Shown: positions 47,782 to 52,563 of the stretch, one piece after another
Numbering within the stretch: position 1 is the stretch's first letter
Layout: each line of letters opens with the position of its first letter
Origin: Sphingobium sp. EM0848
GTDB taxonomy: Bacteria > Pseudomonadota > Alphaproteobacteria > Sphingomonadales > Sphingomonadaceae
Length of the DNA stretch: 64,000 nt
Reading direction: 5' to 3'
Assembly: GCF_013375555.1 (NCBI RefSeq)
Contig: NZ_JABXWB010000001.1
Coordinates: forward strand, 310,001-374,000
The notes under the pieces: generated by a model
The model's database searches: none
What the model was told of the DNA's origin: nothing
What the model saw: the letters and a program-made list of their open reading frames with translations, nothing else
Program-made: the position numbers and the translations under genes

Positions 47782-47858
47782 AGCTCTTCTGGACAGGGAA
47801 GTCTCCGCCGCCTTCCGCGCCAGCCTCGAGCTGGCGCCAATTCTGCGCCGAACTTCAA

Positions 47859-47884
47859 TTTGAAAGCAAGGATCGGAGTGCAGC
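47859..47884 (+). promoter_or_regulatory. Shared alkylation-regulon motif, copy 1 (before ogt)
   Basis: Contains TTTGAAAGCAAGGATCGG then AGTGCAGC. It agrees with copy 2 (51598-51620, opposite strand) at 22 of 23 positions and with copy 3 at about 20 of 26. It lies 137 bases before the ogt start in a 240-base region with no gene. Confidence 0.7.
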
Positions 47885-48021
47885 TTGCGTTGCAATGCAG
47901 CAGCCTGTCTGCTGCCTCCCCGGCCCCCTCGCAGAGCGGTCTCAAGGAAATGCCGATGTTTCCCAGACTGCCTGACGGTCCATAGGAGGTGCAGATGTCT
48001 ATATTATCGGAGAGCTGAAGC

Positions 48022-48576
48022 GTGGATAAATCTCCATATCATTATGTTTTCGAAACGGCATATGGCTTTGCGGCTATCGGTTGGCGCGCGTCGCGCGTTT
48101 CGAGCGTCCGGCTGCCTTCAAGGACGGCAGGAGCAGCCGAAAGCTCCCTTCTCCGTAGATTTCCCACATCCAAGCTGGCTGTGCCCCCGGAGTTCGTGCG
48201 CACCGTGGTCGACAGCGCGCAGCGTTATTTCGGCGGTGAACGCGTGGATTTTTCCGCCGTTGAAATCGATCTGGGAGAGCAAGAGCCGCTATTTGAACGC
48301 ATCTACGCTTTCGTGCGTGCCTTGGGTTATGGCGAGACGACGACCTACGGGGCCATTGCCAAGGCGCTGGGAGAGGAACCGCAGGTTGCGCGGATCGTCG
48401 GCGAGGCGATGTCCCGCAACCCAGTCCCTCTGATCGTGCCTTGTCATCGCGTGACTGCGGCCGGGGGGAAGATCGGTGGCTTCTCCGCGCCGGGCGGCTC
48501 CCATTCAAAGGCCCATATGCTCGCGCTGGAGGGAGTCGTCCCGCCCTCGGACGGCCAGGCCGGCTTCGGATTCTAA
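48022..48576 (+). CDS. ogt: Methylated-DNA--protein-cysteine methyltransferase
   Basis: 184 residues. Transfers alkyl groups from O6-alkylguanine to its own cysteine, a suicide repair reaction. The active centre IVPCHRV (Cys141) and helix-turn-helix segment YGETTTYGAIAKALG are present. It starts with GTG after GGAGAG. It is separate from the ada operon but shares the upstream motif at 47859. Confidence 0.93.
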   Translation: MDKSPYHYVFETAYGFAAIGWRASRVSSVRLPSRTAGAAESSLLRRFPTSKLAVPPEFVRTVVDSAQRYFGGERVDFSAVEIDLGEQEPLFERIYAFVRALGYGETTTYGAIAKALGEEPQVARIVGEAMSRNPVPLIVPCHRVTAAGGKIGGFSAPGGSHSKAHMLALEGVVPPSDGQAGFGF

Positions 48577-48600
48577 CCGCAAGACGGGAGGAGGATATGA

Positions 48601-48783
48601 TCCAAAGGCGCCGTTTTTCGCAAGCTGCATGACAGCTTCTTCATCCTGCCGAACGCAGCGACAGCCGGGGAAACGAGAGCGCTCGACAAGGCCGGTTTCA
48701 GGGCGATCGCGTCGACCAGCCATGGCCGCGCGCCAACCGCGCGCATGCCCGCCGGTCAGCTTCGCTCCGGTCCATGCCCTTAA
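48601..48783 (+). pseudogene. Remnant of a PEP mutase/isocitrate lyase-family gene
   Basis: The frame from 48601 to the stop at 48781 reads VFRKLHDSFFILPNAATAGE and TRALDKAGFRAIASTSHGRA, the N-terminus of phosphoenolpyruvate mutase-family proteins (normally about 250-280 residues). It is not preceded by a start in frame (TGA at 48598) and stops after about 60 residues. An ATG at 48597 in another frame gives only 11 residues, so a frameshift plus truncation is inferred. Confidence 0.7.
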
Positions 48784-48818
48784 AATGGATGCCGCTTGCC
48801 GGTCACGACGCCGGTTTG

Positions 48819-49157
48819 TCAGACGAGTCGCAGGATCGCGGTTTCCGCCAGAAGATAGATCTCGCCCGACGTGAAGCGCACCTCAATCTCGCCGTTCATC
48901 TGCGCCTCGAACTCTGCATGACCGTCGACGACGAGGCGCGCGATATAGGTCAGGACCAGCTTCTTTTCCGGATCGTCCTTCGCGAATGCGACGAAACCAG
49001 CCGAGACCTTCTCCGCTTGATCGCGCCTGCGCCGTTTCGCACTCGCGCTGTATCCGCCGCGCGAAAACATGGATATCGTTTCCTCGTTCTGCTCAGCCCG
49101 TCCGCCTGATCTGGCGCCATGATCGATGGGGGTGAGTGGTTCAAACAAATCGGGCAT
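48819..49157 (-). CDS. Small hypothetical protein in the ada operon
   Basis: 112 residues: an Arg-rich N-terminal half and a C-terminal part VLTYIARLVVDGHAEFEAQ...GEIYLLAETAILRLV that reads like a beta-sandwich sequence. No domain recognised. It overlaps the upstream gene by 17 bases and is the fourth gene of the ada-alkA unit, which suggests a link to alkylation stress by position only. Confidence 0.6.
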   Translation of the reverse strand: MPDLFEPLTPIDHGARSGGRAEQNEETISMFSRGGYSASAKRRRRDQAEKVSAGFVAFAKDDPEKKLVLTYIARLVVDGHAEFEAQMNGEIEVRFTSGEIYLLAETAILRLV

Positions 49158-49791
49158 GTTCGGGTCGGCCGGAAATAATGCGCAATGATGGATGGAGCAT
49201 TGGCCGGTATCCGGACCTGAGCGCTCCCAGTGTCGACGGGGGTGTCAGCAGCCAATCCGCGCGGTCGAGGGACGGGGCGGGCACATATCCGCCCTCAGTC
49301 CAGTGATGAGGCCGGCCGTCGCACAATGTGAACGCGTCCCGCCCTGCTGCGACCACCGCGCCATCGGGCAGGTCCGTCAGCGGCGCCGGGATCGGGTGCA
49401 GGCGTTTGCGGCTGCGGCTGAGCCGCTCGCCGTGCAGGATGATGTCCATGCGATCCGCCGATGGCCGGGCTTCTCCCCGATGATCCGCCCAGCAGGCGCG
49501 AAAATGTTCGGCAGCGTCTCGCCGGCATAGAAAACAGGGGCGATGACCGGCGGCCAGCGCGATCGCTTCGTCGAGGAAGAACAGCTCGGTCCAGCTTCGG
49601 TTGGCCATCAGGTCCCGCCGTCGCCCCTTATAGTCGCAGGTGCAGACCAGCCATGCTCTTGACGCCCAGCGCTTCGCCAGCAGCCTTTTCGTTGCCGGGT
49701 CATGGATGATGCCGCGATTGCCGATAAGCAGACCGCGTTGCGCGATGGCTACGACCTCACCGAAGGGGGTGACGCGGTTTTGCAGCGGCAT
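49141..49791 (-). CDS. Uncharacterised four-cysteine protein linked to ada/alkA
   Basis: 216 residues of a conserved unknown family (begins MPLQNRVTPFGEVVAIAQRG). Cys50-x-Cys52 and Cys86-x2-Cys89 with the flanking GHRPCFLC recall the Ada N-terminal zinc site, where GFRPCKRC holds the second Cys pair. Spacing is C-x-C-x33-C-x2-C against C-x3-C-x26-C-x2-C in Ada. It starts 16 bases after alkA on the same strand. A metal-binding or methyl-accepting role is inferred, not shown. Confidence 0.72.
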   Translation of the reverse strand: MPLQNRVTPFGEVVAIAQRGLLIGNRGIIHDPATKRLLAKRWASRAWLVCTCDYKGRRRDLMANRSWTELFFLDEAIALAAGHRPCFLCRRDAAEHFRACWADHRGEARPSADRMDIILHGERLSRSRKRLHPIPAPLTDLPDGAVVAAGRDAFTLCDGRPHHWTEGGYVPAPSLDRADWLLTPPSTLGALRSGYRPMLHPSLRIISGRPEHARFV

Positions 49792-49807
49792 GACGTCTGC
49801 TCTCCCT

Positions 49808-50449
49808 CTATTTGAGAACGGTCCCGCGCTCGCGCGGGATGCGCCACAGATACCAGGCAGCGACGGTGCGATGCGGTGCCCAGGCCTTCGCGATTTCGCG
49901 CAGCACCTTCGGCTTGGGCTGCTCGTCCAGCGACTTCAGCACCCGATAGCCCTCACGGACCCCGAAATCGTCGACCGGGAGGACATCCATGCGCTCGAGT
50001 GAATACATAAGCAGCATCTCGACGGTCCAGCGGCCGACGCCCTTGATGCCGACCATCCGGTCGATGAGCGTTTCATCGTCCATCGTTGCGGCCATTTCGC
50101 GCGTCGGAATGACGCCCGAGATCGTTGCGGCGGCAATCGCCTGGATCGTCGCGGCCTTGCTGGCCGAGAATCCGCAGCTTCGTAGCCGCTCATACTCTGT
50201 ACCGACGAGATCGTGGGGTGTTGGAAAAGCCCGATCTTCGAACAGCGCCTTCAGGCGCTCAATGATCGCGTCGCCGGCCTTGGCGGTGAGTTGCTGATAG
50301 GCGATCGCCCGCACGAGTGCCTCATACGGTTCGCGTGCCGCCTTGGGATCGTGTCGGCAGGGGCCGACCCGTTCGATCAGCTTTGCCCAATCGCCGTCGA
50401 CATTCGCGAGAAAGGCAACCGAAGCGTCATAGCGCGCGGAAAGGGTCAT
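49808..50449 (-). CDS. alkA: DNA-3-methyladenine glycosylase II
   Basis: 213 residues. Removes 3-methylated purines and other alkylated bases. The helix-hairpin-helix GIKGVGRWTVEMLL (about 134-147) and catalytic Asp161 in LPVDDFG are present. Only the catalytic HhH part is there; the N-terminal domain of E. coli AlkA is missing. The start overlaps the ada stop (ATGA), so expression is coupled. Confidence 0.93.
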   Translation of the reverse strand: MTLSARYDASVAFLANVDGDWAKLIERVGPCRHDPKAAREPYEALVRAIAYQQLTAKAGDAIIERLKALFEDRAFPTPHDLVGTEYERLRSCGFSASKAATIQAIAAATISGVIPTREMAATMDDETLIDRMVGIKGVGRWTVEMLLMYSLERMDVLPVDDFGVREGYRVLKSLDEQPKPKVLREIAKAWAPHRTVAAWYLWRIPRERGTVLK

Positions 50450-51543
50450 GCGACCTGCGCGGCCTCGCGATCCAGGATCGCGCGCTTGCGCTCGACGCCC
50501 CACGCATATCCTGAGAGCGATCCGTCGTTGCGCACCACGCGATGACAGGGGATGGCAACGGCCAGATTGTTTGCGGCGCAGGCGCCCGCAACCGCCCTGA
50601 CCGCTGTCGGCGATCCAATGCGCCGCGCAATCTCGGCATAGGATACACGCTGGCCGACGGGGATTTCCTGCAACGCCTGCCACACGCGCCGCTGAAAGGC
50701 GGTGCCGCGAACATCAAGCGGCAAGTCGAGGCCGACACCGGGATTTTCGACGAAGCCGACCACCCGCGCGATCAGCGCCTCATAATCCCGGTCCATGCCG
50801 ATCAGGTGCGCCTTGGGGAAGCGATCCTGGAGGTTGCGGACCAGCGCGTCGGGATCGTCGCCGAGCAGGATGGATGCCACCCCCTTCTTGCTTGAGGCAA
50901 CCAGGATCGCGCCGAGATAGGATTCGCCGACGGCGAATTTGATCTCCTCGTCGGCGCCGCCCGCGCGATACTGGGTCGGGGTCATGCCGAGCATGCCGGT
51001 CGATTTCTCGTAGAAGCGGCCGCTGGAGTTGAAACCGGCGTCGTATATCGCTTCGGTGACGCTGGTTCCCGATTCCAGGCCTTCGCGAACCTTTCGGGCA
51101 CGATCAGCCGCTGCATAGGCTTTGGGCGTCAGGCCGGTCGTGGCCTTGAAGACGCGATGGAAATAGCTGGGGCTTCGATCCATGGCCGCCGCGACTTCCT
51201 CGAGCGACGGTTCCGTCTCGCATTCCTCGATGAAGCGGCAGGCTCTGGCGACCAGCACGGCGTTTTCGACATCCAGCGAAGGGCCATCGGGGTTGCAGCG
51301 TTTGCAGGGACGGAAGCCGGTCCTCTGCGCGCTTTCCAGCGTGTCGTGGAGCGTGACGTTCCGAGGGTTTGCGGTCCGCGACGGACAGGATGGACGGCAA
51401 TAGACGCCCGTGGTCGAGACCGAGTACCAGAGTTCGCCATCGGCCGCCTTGTCGCGCGCGACGATGCGCGCCCAGCGCGGATCGTCCTCGACCGCAAGCA
51501 ATGCCGTGGGCGGAGTCGGTGCGATATGAGAATTGGGCATCAT
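50446..51543 (-). CDS. ada: Bifunctional Ada: transcriptional activator and DNA alkyltransferase
   Basis: 365 residues. N-terminal zinc domain with Cys49, Cys53, Cys80, Cys83 (C-x3-C-x26-C-x2-C): one cysteine accepts the methyl of phosphotriesters and turns the protein into an activator. Then an AraC-type helix-turn-helix (about 96-190), and the O6-alkylguanine transferase domain with IPCHRV (Cys333). First gene of ada-alkA-216aa-112aa. A conserved motif lies 55-77 bases upstream. Confidence 0.95.
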   Translation of the reverse strand: MMPNSHIAPTPPTALLAVEDDPRWARIVARDKAADGELWYSVSTTGVYCRPSCPSRTANPRNVTLHDTLESAQRTGFRPCKRCNPDGPSLDVENAVLVARACRFIEECETEPSLEEVAAAMDRSPSYFHRVFKATTGLTPKAYAAADRARKVREGLESGTSVTEAIYDAGFNSSGRFYEKSTGMLGMTPTQYRAGGADEEIKFAVGESYLGAILVASSKKGVASILLGDDPDALVRNLQDRFPKAHLIGMDRDYEALIARVVGFVENPGVGLDLPLDVRGTAFQRRVWQALQEIPVGQRVSYAEIARRIGSPTAVRAVAGACAANNLAVAIPCHRVVRNDGSLSGYAWGVERKRAILDREAAQVA

Positions 51544-51597
51544 TTCTCTTCTTCTCTATCAGGTCTGCGCGCACCCTGCCGCCGTATCACGCCGACC

Positions 51598-51620
51598 GCA
51601 CTCCGATCCTTGCTTTTAAA
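51598..51620 (-). promoter_or_regulatory. Shared alkylation-regulon motif, copy 2 (before ada)
   Basis: On the minus strand the core reads AAAGCAAGGATCGGAGTGC, preceded by TTTA. It matches copy 1 upstream of ogt at 22 of 23 positions. It ends 55 bases before the ada ATG, a position suited to an Ada-bound upstream activator site. Confidence 0.7.
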
Positions 51621-51736
51621 TCGAAACTGCCCGCTTCGCTGCGCCATAAACGCCCCGGATAGCGGCTTTCAGCTTCGTGTCAGGCCGCGAACGCAGCTTC
51701 AATGGGATTGGCGGGAAGCGGAGCGGGTGGAAATGA

Positions 51737-51770
51737 ATGGGGCTCGCACCGATATCCGCGCGAGCCCCAT
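51737..51770 (-). terminator. Hairpin downstream of the SnoaL-like gene
   Basis: ATGGGGCTCGC (51737-51747) and GCGAGCCCCAT (51760-51770) are perfect 11-bp arms. It follows the SnoaL-like gene (minus strand) by about 40 bases; no clear T-run. Confidence 0.5.
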
Positions 51771-51812
51771 CCGGTGCGACCTGTCTCTGGAACAGCTGAT
51801 TTGAGATACGGG

Positions 51813-52262
51813 TCAGGCCCTGTTGATCAGCCCGAGTTGCATCATCGCCGTCAGGCCGTCATCAAGGCCGTTCTCCTCGACGATCAGGCCGTCGACCACC
51901 TTCAGCACGGTCTTGCCGGTGAAATGCATCTTGCGGCCGGTTGCCGGCGGCAGGCCGCCCAGCAGGAAGTCGTCAAACGCCGGACCCATGTGGGTGCCAC
52001 CGCCTTCCCACTGGCCGACGACATAGTCGCCCTCGGCAATCAGGTCGGCGGTGCCCCAGAAGTTGAGGTCCGGGAACGCTGCGCGAAAATCGGTCATGAA
52101 GGCCTTGATGTCGGCGCGGCCACGACGCGGCTCATGCAACGAATATTGCAGCAGCATGTCGGGGTGGGCGATCTCGTCGATTACCGACAGGTTGACGTCC
52201 TTGCCCCAGAATTCGGTGAACCAGCGGACGACGACGGCCTTGTTGTCTTCTTCTTTGCTCAT
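51813..52262 (-). CDS. SnoaL/NTF2-like protein
   Basis: 149 residues with the SnoaL-like pattern: VVVRWFTEFWGKDVNLSVIDEI; AFMTDFRAAFPDLNF; GDYVVGQWEGGGTHMG; FTGKTVLKVVDGLIVEE. The fold is a cone-shaped alpha+beta barrel used by ester cyclases and ketosteroid isomerase-like proteins. A motif like that of ogt and ada lies 89-109 bases upstream. Function unknown; possibly detoxification. Confidence 0.82.
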   Translation of the reverse strand: MSKEEDNKAVVVRWFTEFWGKDVNLSVIDEIAHPDMLLQYSLHEPRRGRADIKAFMTDFRAAFPDLNFWGTADLIAEGDYVVGQWEGGGTHMGPAFDDFLLGGLPPATGRKMHFTGKTVLKVVDGLIVEENGLDDGLTAMMQLGLINRA

Positions 52263-52563
52263 GGGAGAATCCTTCCTTCCTTTCGGGGGATCGGTCAGCG
52301 AAATCTCTCGATGACCTGGAGGTTGGATATGGGAGCTGGTCGAGCGCAAAACTCCGCTTCTTACTTTCAAACCGGAAACGGCGTTGCGCCGACGTTTCGC
52401 GCCGCGGCTGACCTTAGCTATAGGGCGCCAGGCGCTGCATCAGCGCGAACCGCATGTGGCGCGGTTGATCCCGCGCGATCTCGTTAATGTCTCGTGCACT
52501 CGTCCTCGGACCTGCTCCAGAAGGGCGCTTCCAAGGGAATTTATCGCAGACGATGAAAGATTT
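52263..52563. other. Intergenic region upstream of the SnoaL-like gene
   Basis: About 300 bases without a supportable gene, between the SnoaL-like gene and the LuxR stop. It carries copy 3 of the shared motif (52351-52371). The remaining part is GC-rich with short inverted GCGC tracts and no recognised coding sequence. Confidence 0.45.
52351..52371 (-). promoter_or_regulatory. Shared alkylation-regulon motif, copy 3 (before SnoaL-like gene)
   Basis: On the minus strand: TTTGAAAGTAAGAAGCGGAG, then T. It agrees with copy 1 in TTTGAAAG, AAG and CGGAGT but differs inside the GGAT core. Weaker than copies 1 and 2, but in the same promoter-like position. Confidence 0.5.

Follow-up and report, generated by a model that had tools for sequence, protein, structure and literature searches.

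A probable Ada operator before a SnoaL-like gene suggests a further member of the alkylation response in Sphingobium sp. EM0848

We examined a 64,000-nucleotide stretch of Sphingobium sp. EM0848 DNA (the window; C1:310001-374000 of a 5.64 Mb genome in five contigs) in which a gene for a SnoaL-like protein lies close to ada, alkA-like and ogt-type genes. Ada is a bacterial protein that senses methylation damage to DNA. From sequence comparison we conclude, with a probability of about 0.8, that a motif standing before these genes serves as operator for the Ada protein encoded in the window, and that this Ada's regulon genuinely includes the SnoaL-like gene. We infer that Ada binds the motif and induces the SnoaL gene, which on our best reading would be a conserved and apparently unreported adaptive-response gene that perhaps handles an electrophile. 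An earlier note on this DNA, made from its letters alone, had named ogt, ada and a SnoaL-like gene here. The gene calls proved right, with profile matches for an Ada, an HhH-GPD glycosylase, an Ogt-type methyltransferase and a SnoaL protein (the SnoaL match to PF07366 scored 94.6 bits against a cut-off of 28.4; see Table 1 for coordinates).

Motif copies in the genome

The motif precedes all three units concerned, namely the SnoaL-like gene, the ada operon and ogt. The sequence AAAGCAAGGATCGGAGTGC occurs exactly at 47863-47881 (+) and 51598-51616 (-), with a window expectation of 0.02 at up to three mismatches, and the longer copies, ATTT[G/A]AAAGCAAGGATCGGAGTGC, are equal at all bases but one, in agreement with the earlier description of a motif before ogt and, inverted, before ada. 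The weaker copy described before the SnoaL-like gene is also present (GGTTTGAAAGTAAGAAGCGGAGTTT, 86 bases before the ATG at 52262). The ada, alkA-like, 216-amino acid and 112-amino acid genes (51543 to 48819, minus strand) likely form one operon, as the end of ada shares an ATGA with the start of alkA, the third gene begins 16 nucleotides (nt) past alkA and the fourth overlaps the third.

A search of the whole genome with the degenerate 25-mer RWTTYRAMAGYAAGRANCGGAGTKY, which was composed so that the SnoaL copy is covered as well, returned five places at up to three mismatches and none in the reversed control. These lie before ogt, the ada-alkA operon, the SnoaL-like gene, alkB, and a pair of ogt and 2-oxoglutarate (2OG)-oxygenase genes. 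The site at C1:293124 stands before a shortened copy of the 216-amino acid gene, with alkB next, and the one at C1:294373 precedes an ogt-type gene, after which comes a 2OG-oxygenase-like gene (the genes at both places were identified from their translations). As there are five genomic places only, all before regulon genes, we rejected a dispersed mobile repeat. The 19-mer search gave one extra match with three mismatches (C5:1486435, inside a long open frame resembling an integrase by eye), which we rejected as a motif site and took to be chance because the reversed control also gave one. It should be noted that ARMAGYAAGNANCGGAGTK, present in 2 of 397 family genomes including this one, misses the Sphingomonas variants (L030, L039 and L069) as well as the ogt and SnoaL copies of this genome, and is therefore too strict to mean absence.

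Scored against a matrix of the four other own sites, the SnoaL copy has p = 1.4e-8 per position, and by chance 1.1e-5 such copies are expected per 400-base upstream region (both strands) but 0.16 in the whole genome; the copy is thus significant for its place, but not alone genome-wide.

Operator architecture and the Ada protein

The E. coli Ada box is described as an A box AAT, six bases and a B box GCAA (PMC3788762), and the Caulobacter Cada2 operator as GCAA, a three-base spacer and CGG (PMC10957082). The window motif reads RAT-N6-GCAA then N4-CGGAGT, i.e., it is an extended Ada box, in which the added CGG resembles the X box of Caulobacter. The published AAT-N6-GCAA is exact at two of the five own sites, two others read GAT-N6-GCAA and the SnoaL site reads GGT-N6-GTAA, and in each of the five CGGAGT follows four bases later.

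The window Ada has a zinc (Zn) domain (PF02805, 97 bits) with four cysteines that align with those of 1wpk and 1u8b, as well as an AraC-type helix-turn-helix (HTH) and a methyltransferase region (PF12833, PF00165 and PF01035) with PCHR aligned to 1sfe. The E. coli A-box arginines R45 and R71 (numbering as in PMC3788762, positions by eye) have their counterparts in its CRPSCPSR and CKRC, and the second HTH reads GFNSSGRFYEKS.

We found GCAA-N4-CGG near the start (-150 to +30 nt) of 25 of 30 ada genes compared with 22 of 1500 shuffles, the 30 being the 29 best-scoring of 38 other Ada-bearing genomes of the class plus the second ada of this genome. The eight Adas nearest to the window's (52–59% identity) all have RF in the second HTH, with CGGAGT in four of the eight, and of 21 more distant class Adas (40–47%) 16 have a site, which in 13 reads CGGATA. 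This pattern tracks the Ada tree and is no proof of a contact between the second HTH and the operator end. The second full-length Ada (C1:1882158-1883168, 45% identical) also has GCAA-N4-CGG near its own start, with another ending, and there are two Ada systems within this one genome. The earlier suggestion that the motif is an Ada operator is supported by the match to the Ada box core, by the genomic places, four of which precede repair genes or operons, and by the sites near the 25 ada genes.

Compared with the Ada response of E. coli and Pseudomonas putida (ada, alkA, alkB, and aidB or gcdH), the regulator layout, the Ada box core and a set with ada, alkA, alkB and ogt are alike, whereas the SnoaL-like gene and further genes here fall outside the set given in the available text of PMC4437013 and PMC3788762, and the window operator adds CGGAGT past the B box. 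The resemblance to Cada2 (PMC10957082) lies in GCAA then CGG in the operator and in the pairing of an ogt-type gene with one for a 2OG dioxygenase; in contrast, the window Ada has the cysteine domain and lacks RLHD (the second HTH reads SSGRFYEKS), the spacer is four rather than three bases, and an A-box-like RAT is retained. The main text of the Cada2 paper (PMC10957082) contains neither the word SnoaL nor the word cyclase. Because many alphaproteobacterial cysteine-domain adas show GCAA with CGG near their start, the three-part operator blurs the published division between A+B sites (E. coli Ada) and B+X sites (Cada2).

Conservation of the operator before SnoaL orthologues

One scan of the genome collection recovered 237 SnoaL relatives, of which the best 80 were retained, and the locus counts given here refer to these 80, which are 77–94% identical and come from 22 named genera. 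A matrix made from the four own sites other than the SnoaL site matched 77 of the 80 loci at E < 0.01 in the 400 nt upstream on either strand, with the operator mostly 78–90 nt from the ATG. Shuffled sequences reached E < 0.05 in 50 of 800 cases (6.3%), and so the matrix E-values are slightly too good. The pattern.AAGA[AT].CGGA[GT]T was found on the gene strand within 160 nt at 67 of the 80 loci, and a gene-strand matrix site within the same distance before 73 of 80 SnoaL genes compared with 25 of 822 other open reading frames of at least 150 amino acids in the same loci (the matrix used in this comparison was trained on SnoaL sites). When 65 sequences were aligned on the pattern, which makes the pattern-fixed columns high by construction, the C of GCAA was kept in 56, the T after CGGAGT in 61, and the T and A at +34 and +35 in 62 each. 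Those A-box columns that the search pattern does not cover held 0.6–1.5 bits, compared with 0.03–0.39 bits in the flanks.

An Ada-like protein with the Zn domain is encoded at 61 of the 80 loci, only another repair gene at six (in one of these, L046, Ada is present as two overlapping pieces, as if frame-shifted), and no repair gene at 13, of which two have less than 300 nt downstream. AAG-N3-CGG was retained within 160 nt in 12 of these 13. An Ada match at E ≤ 1e-60 was found in 17 of the 18 genomes in which Ada is not beside SnoaL, and an Ada-type protein is present nearby or elsewhere in the genome for 79 of the 80 loci. Among the 18 remote Ada matches, nine have CGGAGTG 45–95 nt before the gene and two GCAA-N4-CGG with another ending; for the remaining seven there was no trusted site or no upstream DNA. 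Within the class, Ada was found in 39 of 192 genomes (E ≤ 1e-75) and SnoaL in 2 of 192 (E ≤ 1e-45), noting that the cut-offs differ.

A sample of 200 Burkholderiaceae genomes included 16 with SnoaL (17 copies), and AAG-N3-CGG was at the usual place in 13 of the 15 copies with at least 73% identity. By their coordinates, four of these copies (L183-L186) belong to the set of 80 loci; of the 11 fresh copies, ten have AAG-N3-CGG and only six reached the matrix threshold because the motif end differs (CGGGG, CGGGTATT). L199 has CGA in place of CGG, and no motif was found upstream of SnoaL in L186. All 14 Burkholderiaceae genomes that carry these closer copies encode an Ada, and GCAA-N4-CGG precedes an ada in 12 of the 14, with CGA in one more. 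The bases after CGG appear to co-vary in part between the SnoaL and ada sites of these 14 genomes: where the other Ada clade occurs alone, SnoaL CGGAGT was found in 0 of 11, compared with 2 of 3 where an Ada of the window's clade is present, although the SnoaL and ada sites are not base-for-base equal and the genomes are related.

An imported gene with another promoter element in the Bacillota

Two loci from the Bacillota, L019 (Paenibacillus sp. N3.4) and L020 (Cohnella silvisoli), encode a SnoaL that is 91% identical and has a guanine plus cytosine content of 58–59% in DNA of 42–48%. In each of the eight matches listed, their DNA resembles proteobacterial loci from the first base of the ATG onward, into or past the gene end, and the Ada operator was not found upstream of either gene. 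In both genomes CATGTCCNAAAACNGC starts 101 nt upstream of the SnoaL ATG, and again 74 nt upstream of the start of an adjacent Ada-AlkA fusion (486 amino acids, Ada_Zn-HTH-AlkA_N-HhH-GPD; L019:7326-8786), a placing which suggests that CATGTCCNAAAACNGC is itself an operator. The exact 16-mer occurs only at these two places in the Paenibacillus genome (G586; one place in the reversed control) and was not found in any of 29 Paenibacillus congeners. At up to one mismatch, the 17-mer was limited to both promoters in each genome and a single coding-frame place in G586, and at up to two mismatches it was found 19 times in G586 and 11 times in G587, which does not exceed the reversed controls (16 and 23). 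The weight therefore rests on the location of the places and not on their number, and as the two loci are 95.6–97.1% alike in this region they are counted as one event. In L019 the fusion gene also adjoins a remnant of the nucleotidyltransferase gene.

Weighing of alternative explanations

The earlier note had put the SnoaL-like gene forward as a regulon member and had advised scanning the genome and its relatives for the motif. These scans gave the five genomic places and matched 77 of the 80 SnoaL loci, and the proposal is upheld by this conservation, by the co-occurrence with Ada and by the distinct promoter element common to SnoaL and the fusion in the two Bacillota. Several observations nevertheless weigh against it. 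The best match is on the opposite strand in 9 of the 77 loci, and L088, L019 and L020 fall short of E < 0.01. The likeness of the promoters may partly be plain descent because the orthologues are 77–94% identical, and related genomes are not independent samples. The more distant homologues, at 69% (L098, alphaproteobacterial) and at 53% and 52% identity (the other two Burkholderiaceae copies), show no motif and no repair gene in flanks of approximately 1.5 kb to either side. Of the 17 remote Adas, two (G619 and G625) align only from residue 98-104 and are without the Zn domain, and the remote Ada of G624 has an internal stop. Finally, the Mesorhizobium loci (L073, L076, L078, L080 and others) keep the SnoaL site with none such before ada; several of them have GCAGGAAACGGGTGGCG about 23 nt before ada, which is perhaps a changed operator.

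The whole block may move as a unit, so that SnoaL inherited its promoter likeness and has no part in the alkylation response. The frequent presence of a Zn-domain Ada beside SnoaL, the recurrence of the same gene block and the close likeness of the proteins are all consistent with this, and patchiness (2 of 192 class genomes) together with the recurring block suggests transfer. We consider such hitchhiking unlikely, however, as the site persists in 12 of 13 loci with no repair gene nearby in genomes with Ada elsewhere, the Bacillota element common to SnoaL and the Ada-AlkA fusion was not inherited from the donor, and the flanks have decayed while the A-box columns outside the pattern are kept. 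Binding of the motif by another regulator, such as the second Ada or another AraC- or LuxR-type protein, is brought to mind by GCAA-N4-CGG near the start of the second ada (C1:1882158) and by a LuxR-type gene adjoining the SnoaL gene in the window, but is more improbable still, as the second ada's site goes on with GAAG and not AGTG and was not recovered at up to three mismatches. There is also a very slight chance, the smallest of the three, that the SnoaL copy is a chance or decayed match with no function in this genome: four of its 25 bases depart from the four-site consensus, GCAA being replaced by GTAA among other changes, and 0.16 equally good matches are expected in the whole genome, yet the expectation for the 400 nt upstream is 1.1e-5, and GTAA is found at the same place in orthologues such as L017, L023, L040 and L054.

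If the SnoaL-like gene does belong to the regulon of the window's Ada, we envisage that Ada methylated at its N-terminal cysteine would bind the A box through the Zn domain, GCAA through the first HTH and CGGAGT through the second. It would then recruit RNA polymerase to a -35 element at about GAGTTT and a -10 element at the conserved TA 34–35 nt past the C of GCAA, and would switch on SnoaL along with ada-alkA, ogt and alkB.

Possible role of the SnoaL-like protein

The closest protein family is SnoaL-like PF07366 (SnoaL, SnoaL2 and IdmH), indicated by both profile match and fold, and folds near to that of the model include SnoaL-like cyclases, limonene epoxide hydrolases and ketosteroid isomerases (this list is not exhaustive). 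Residues invariant in 59 aligned proteins include Y40, H43, W85, E86, H91, E130, D134 and D135, of which D135 aligns with an aspartate of 8ysb. SnoaL has a catalytic aspartate near the C-terminus, and limonene epoxide hydrolase an Asp-Arg-Asp triad. ChaC and DJ-1 proteins act elsewhere on glutathione and reactive carbonyls, and the presence of ChaC-like and DJ-1-like genes behind operator-like sites in relatives (see below) leans toward electrophile handling.

The earlier idea that the SnoaL protein handles reactive alkyl compounds is a guess, and so is our own version, to which we give somewhat less than even odds, that this small NTF2-fold enzyme converts a small electrophile arising in alkylation stress. 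A wider and slightly more doubtful proposal is that Ada-type sensors of Proteobacteria, Myxococcota and some Bacillota control a dedicated NTF2-fold enzyme which destroys the alkylating electrophile or a toxic by-product, with the promoter swapped for a local one on transfer to a host whose Ada-type operator differs. If this were true, the adaptive response would comprise, in addition to DNA repair, an arm that detoxifies small molecules. Textbooks present the adaptive response as a regulon of ada, alkA, alkB and aidB, to which SnoaL would add one more target, widely retained and strongly conserved, raising the question of what else an alkylated cell needs and providing a concrete gene and assay with which to approach it. 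We found no published link between SnoaL and the Ada response and no paper joining SnoaL, AlkB and alkylation in a search that left most subscription journals outside.

Cluster layout and neighbouring genes

Table 1. Positions of the genes and predicted operators discussed here (window coordinates unless a locus is named).
Feature	Position	Strand	Basis
SnoaL-like gene, 149 amino acids	51813..52262	-	PF07366 94.6 bits; AlphaFold model with a predicted local distance difference test score (pLDDT) of 89; SnoaL-like fold
ada, 365 amino acids (Zn domain, AraC HTH, methyltransferase)	50446..51543	-	Pfam matches and alignment
alkA-like HhH-GPD glycosylase; ATG overlaps ada end	49808..50452	-	Pfam
216-amino acid protein without Pfam match, 16 nt past alkA; homologue in 10/80 SnoaL loci	49141..49791	-	
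112-amino acid protein without Pfam match, overlaps 216-amino acid gene; homologue in 37/80 SnoaL loci	48819..49157	-	
ogt-type methyltransferase, 184 amino acids; GTG start 140 nt past operator	48022..48576	+	Pfam
Predicted Ada-type operator before ogt, AAT-N6-GCAA-N4-CGGAGT	47857..47881	+	
Predicted Ada-type operator before ada, GAT-N6-GCAA-N4-CGGAGT	51598..51622	-	
Predicted Ada-type operator before SnoaL, GGT-N6-GTAA-N4-CGGAGT	52349..52373	-	Genome search, matrix, same place in orthologues
Nucleotidyltransferase, ChaC-like, DJ-1/PfpI-like and TMEM175-like genes	L025:4018-4530, L049:4879-5652, L030:4895-5641, L064:6613-7344, L029:6784-7461, L042:6657-7325		

SnoaL, ada, alkA, the 216-amino acid gene, alkB, ogt and the 2OG gene form a single cluster in L017, L040, L042, L069, L075 and L084, and the cluster in this genome therefore seems to have been split, with the parts now about 63–64 kb apart. 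The shortened second copy of the 216-amino acid gene (C1 about 293280-293575, 75% identical over 84 amino acids) lies before alkB, as if the break were there. The 216-amino acid protein itself has CFLC after GHRP. On the annotated plasmid NZ_CP084754.1, ada, alkB, a glycosylase gene and an 'ester cyclase' gene are adjacent.

Among the 80 loci we counted 244 sites at p < 1e-6, of which 161 are no more than 200 nt from a gene of the set and 83 are elsewhere; some of these 83, which were characterised by clustering alone, are chance matches. In relatives, operator-like sites also precede ChaC-like (five loci), nucleotidyltransferase (six), DJ-1/PfpI-like (two) and TMEM175-like genes (two), groups which were obtained by clustering with Pfam or NCBIfam run on one or two members each. 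The small 112-amino acid type of protein (48819-49157 in the window; L025:8044-8394 and L046:7838-8203) is a further candidate regulon member, and six of its cluster stand behind an operator-like site of their own. A 105-amino acid protein (L034:4548-4865) is also encoded behind an operator-like site and matches Ada_Zn_binding weakly (20.8 bits against a cut-off of 23), and a similar frame of 99 amino acids is found at L020:10613-10912.

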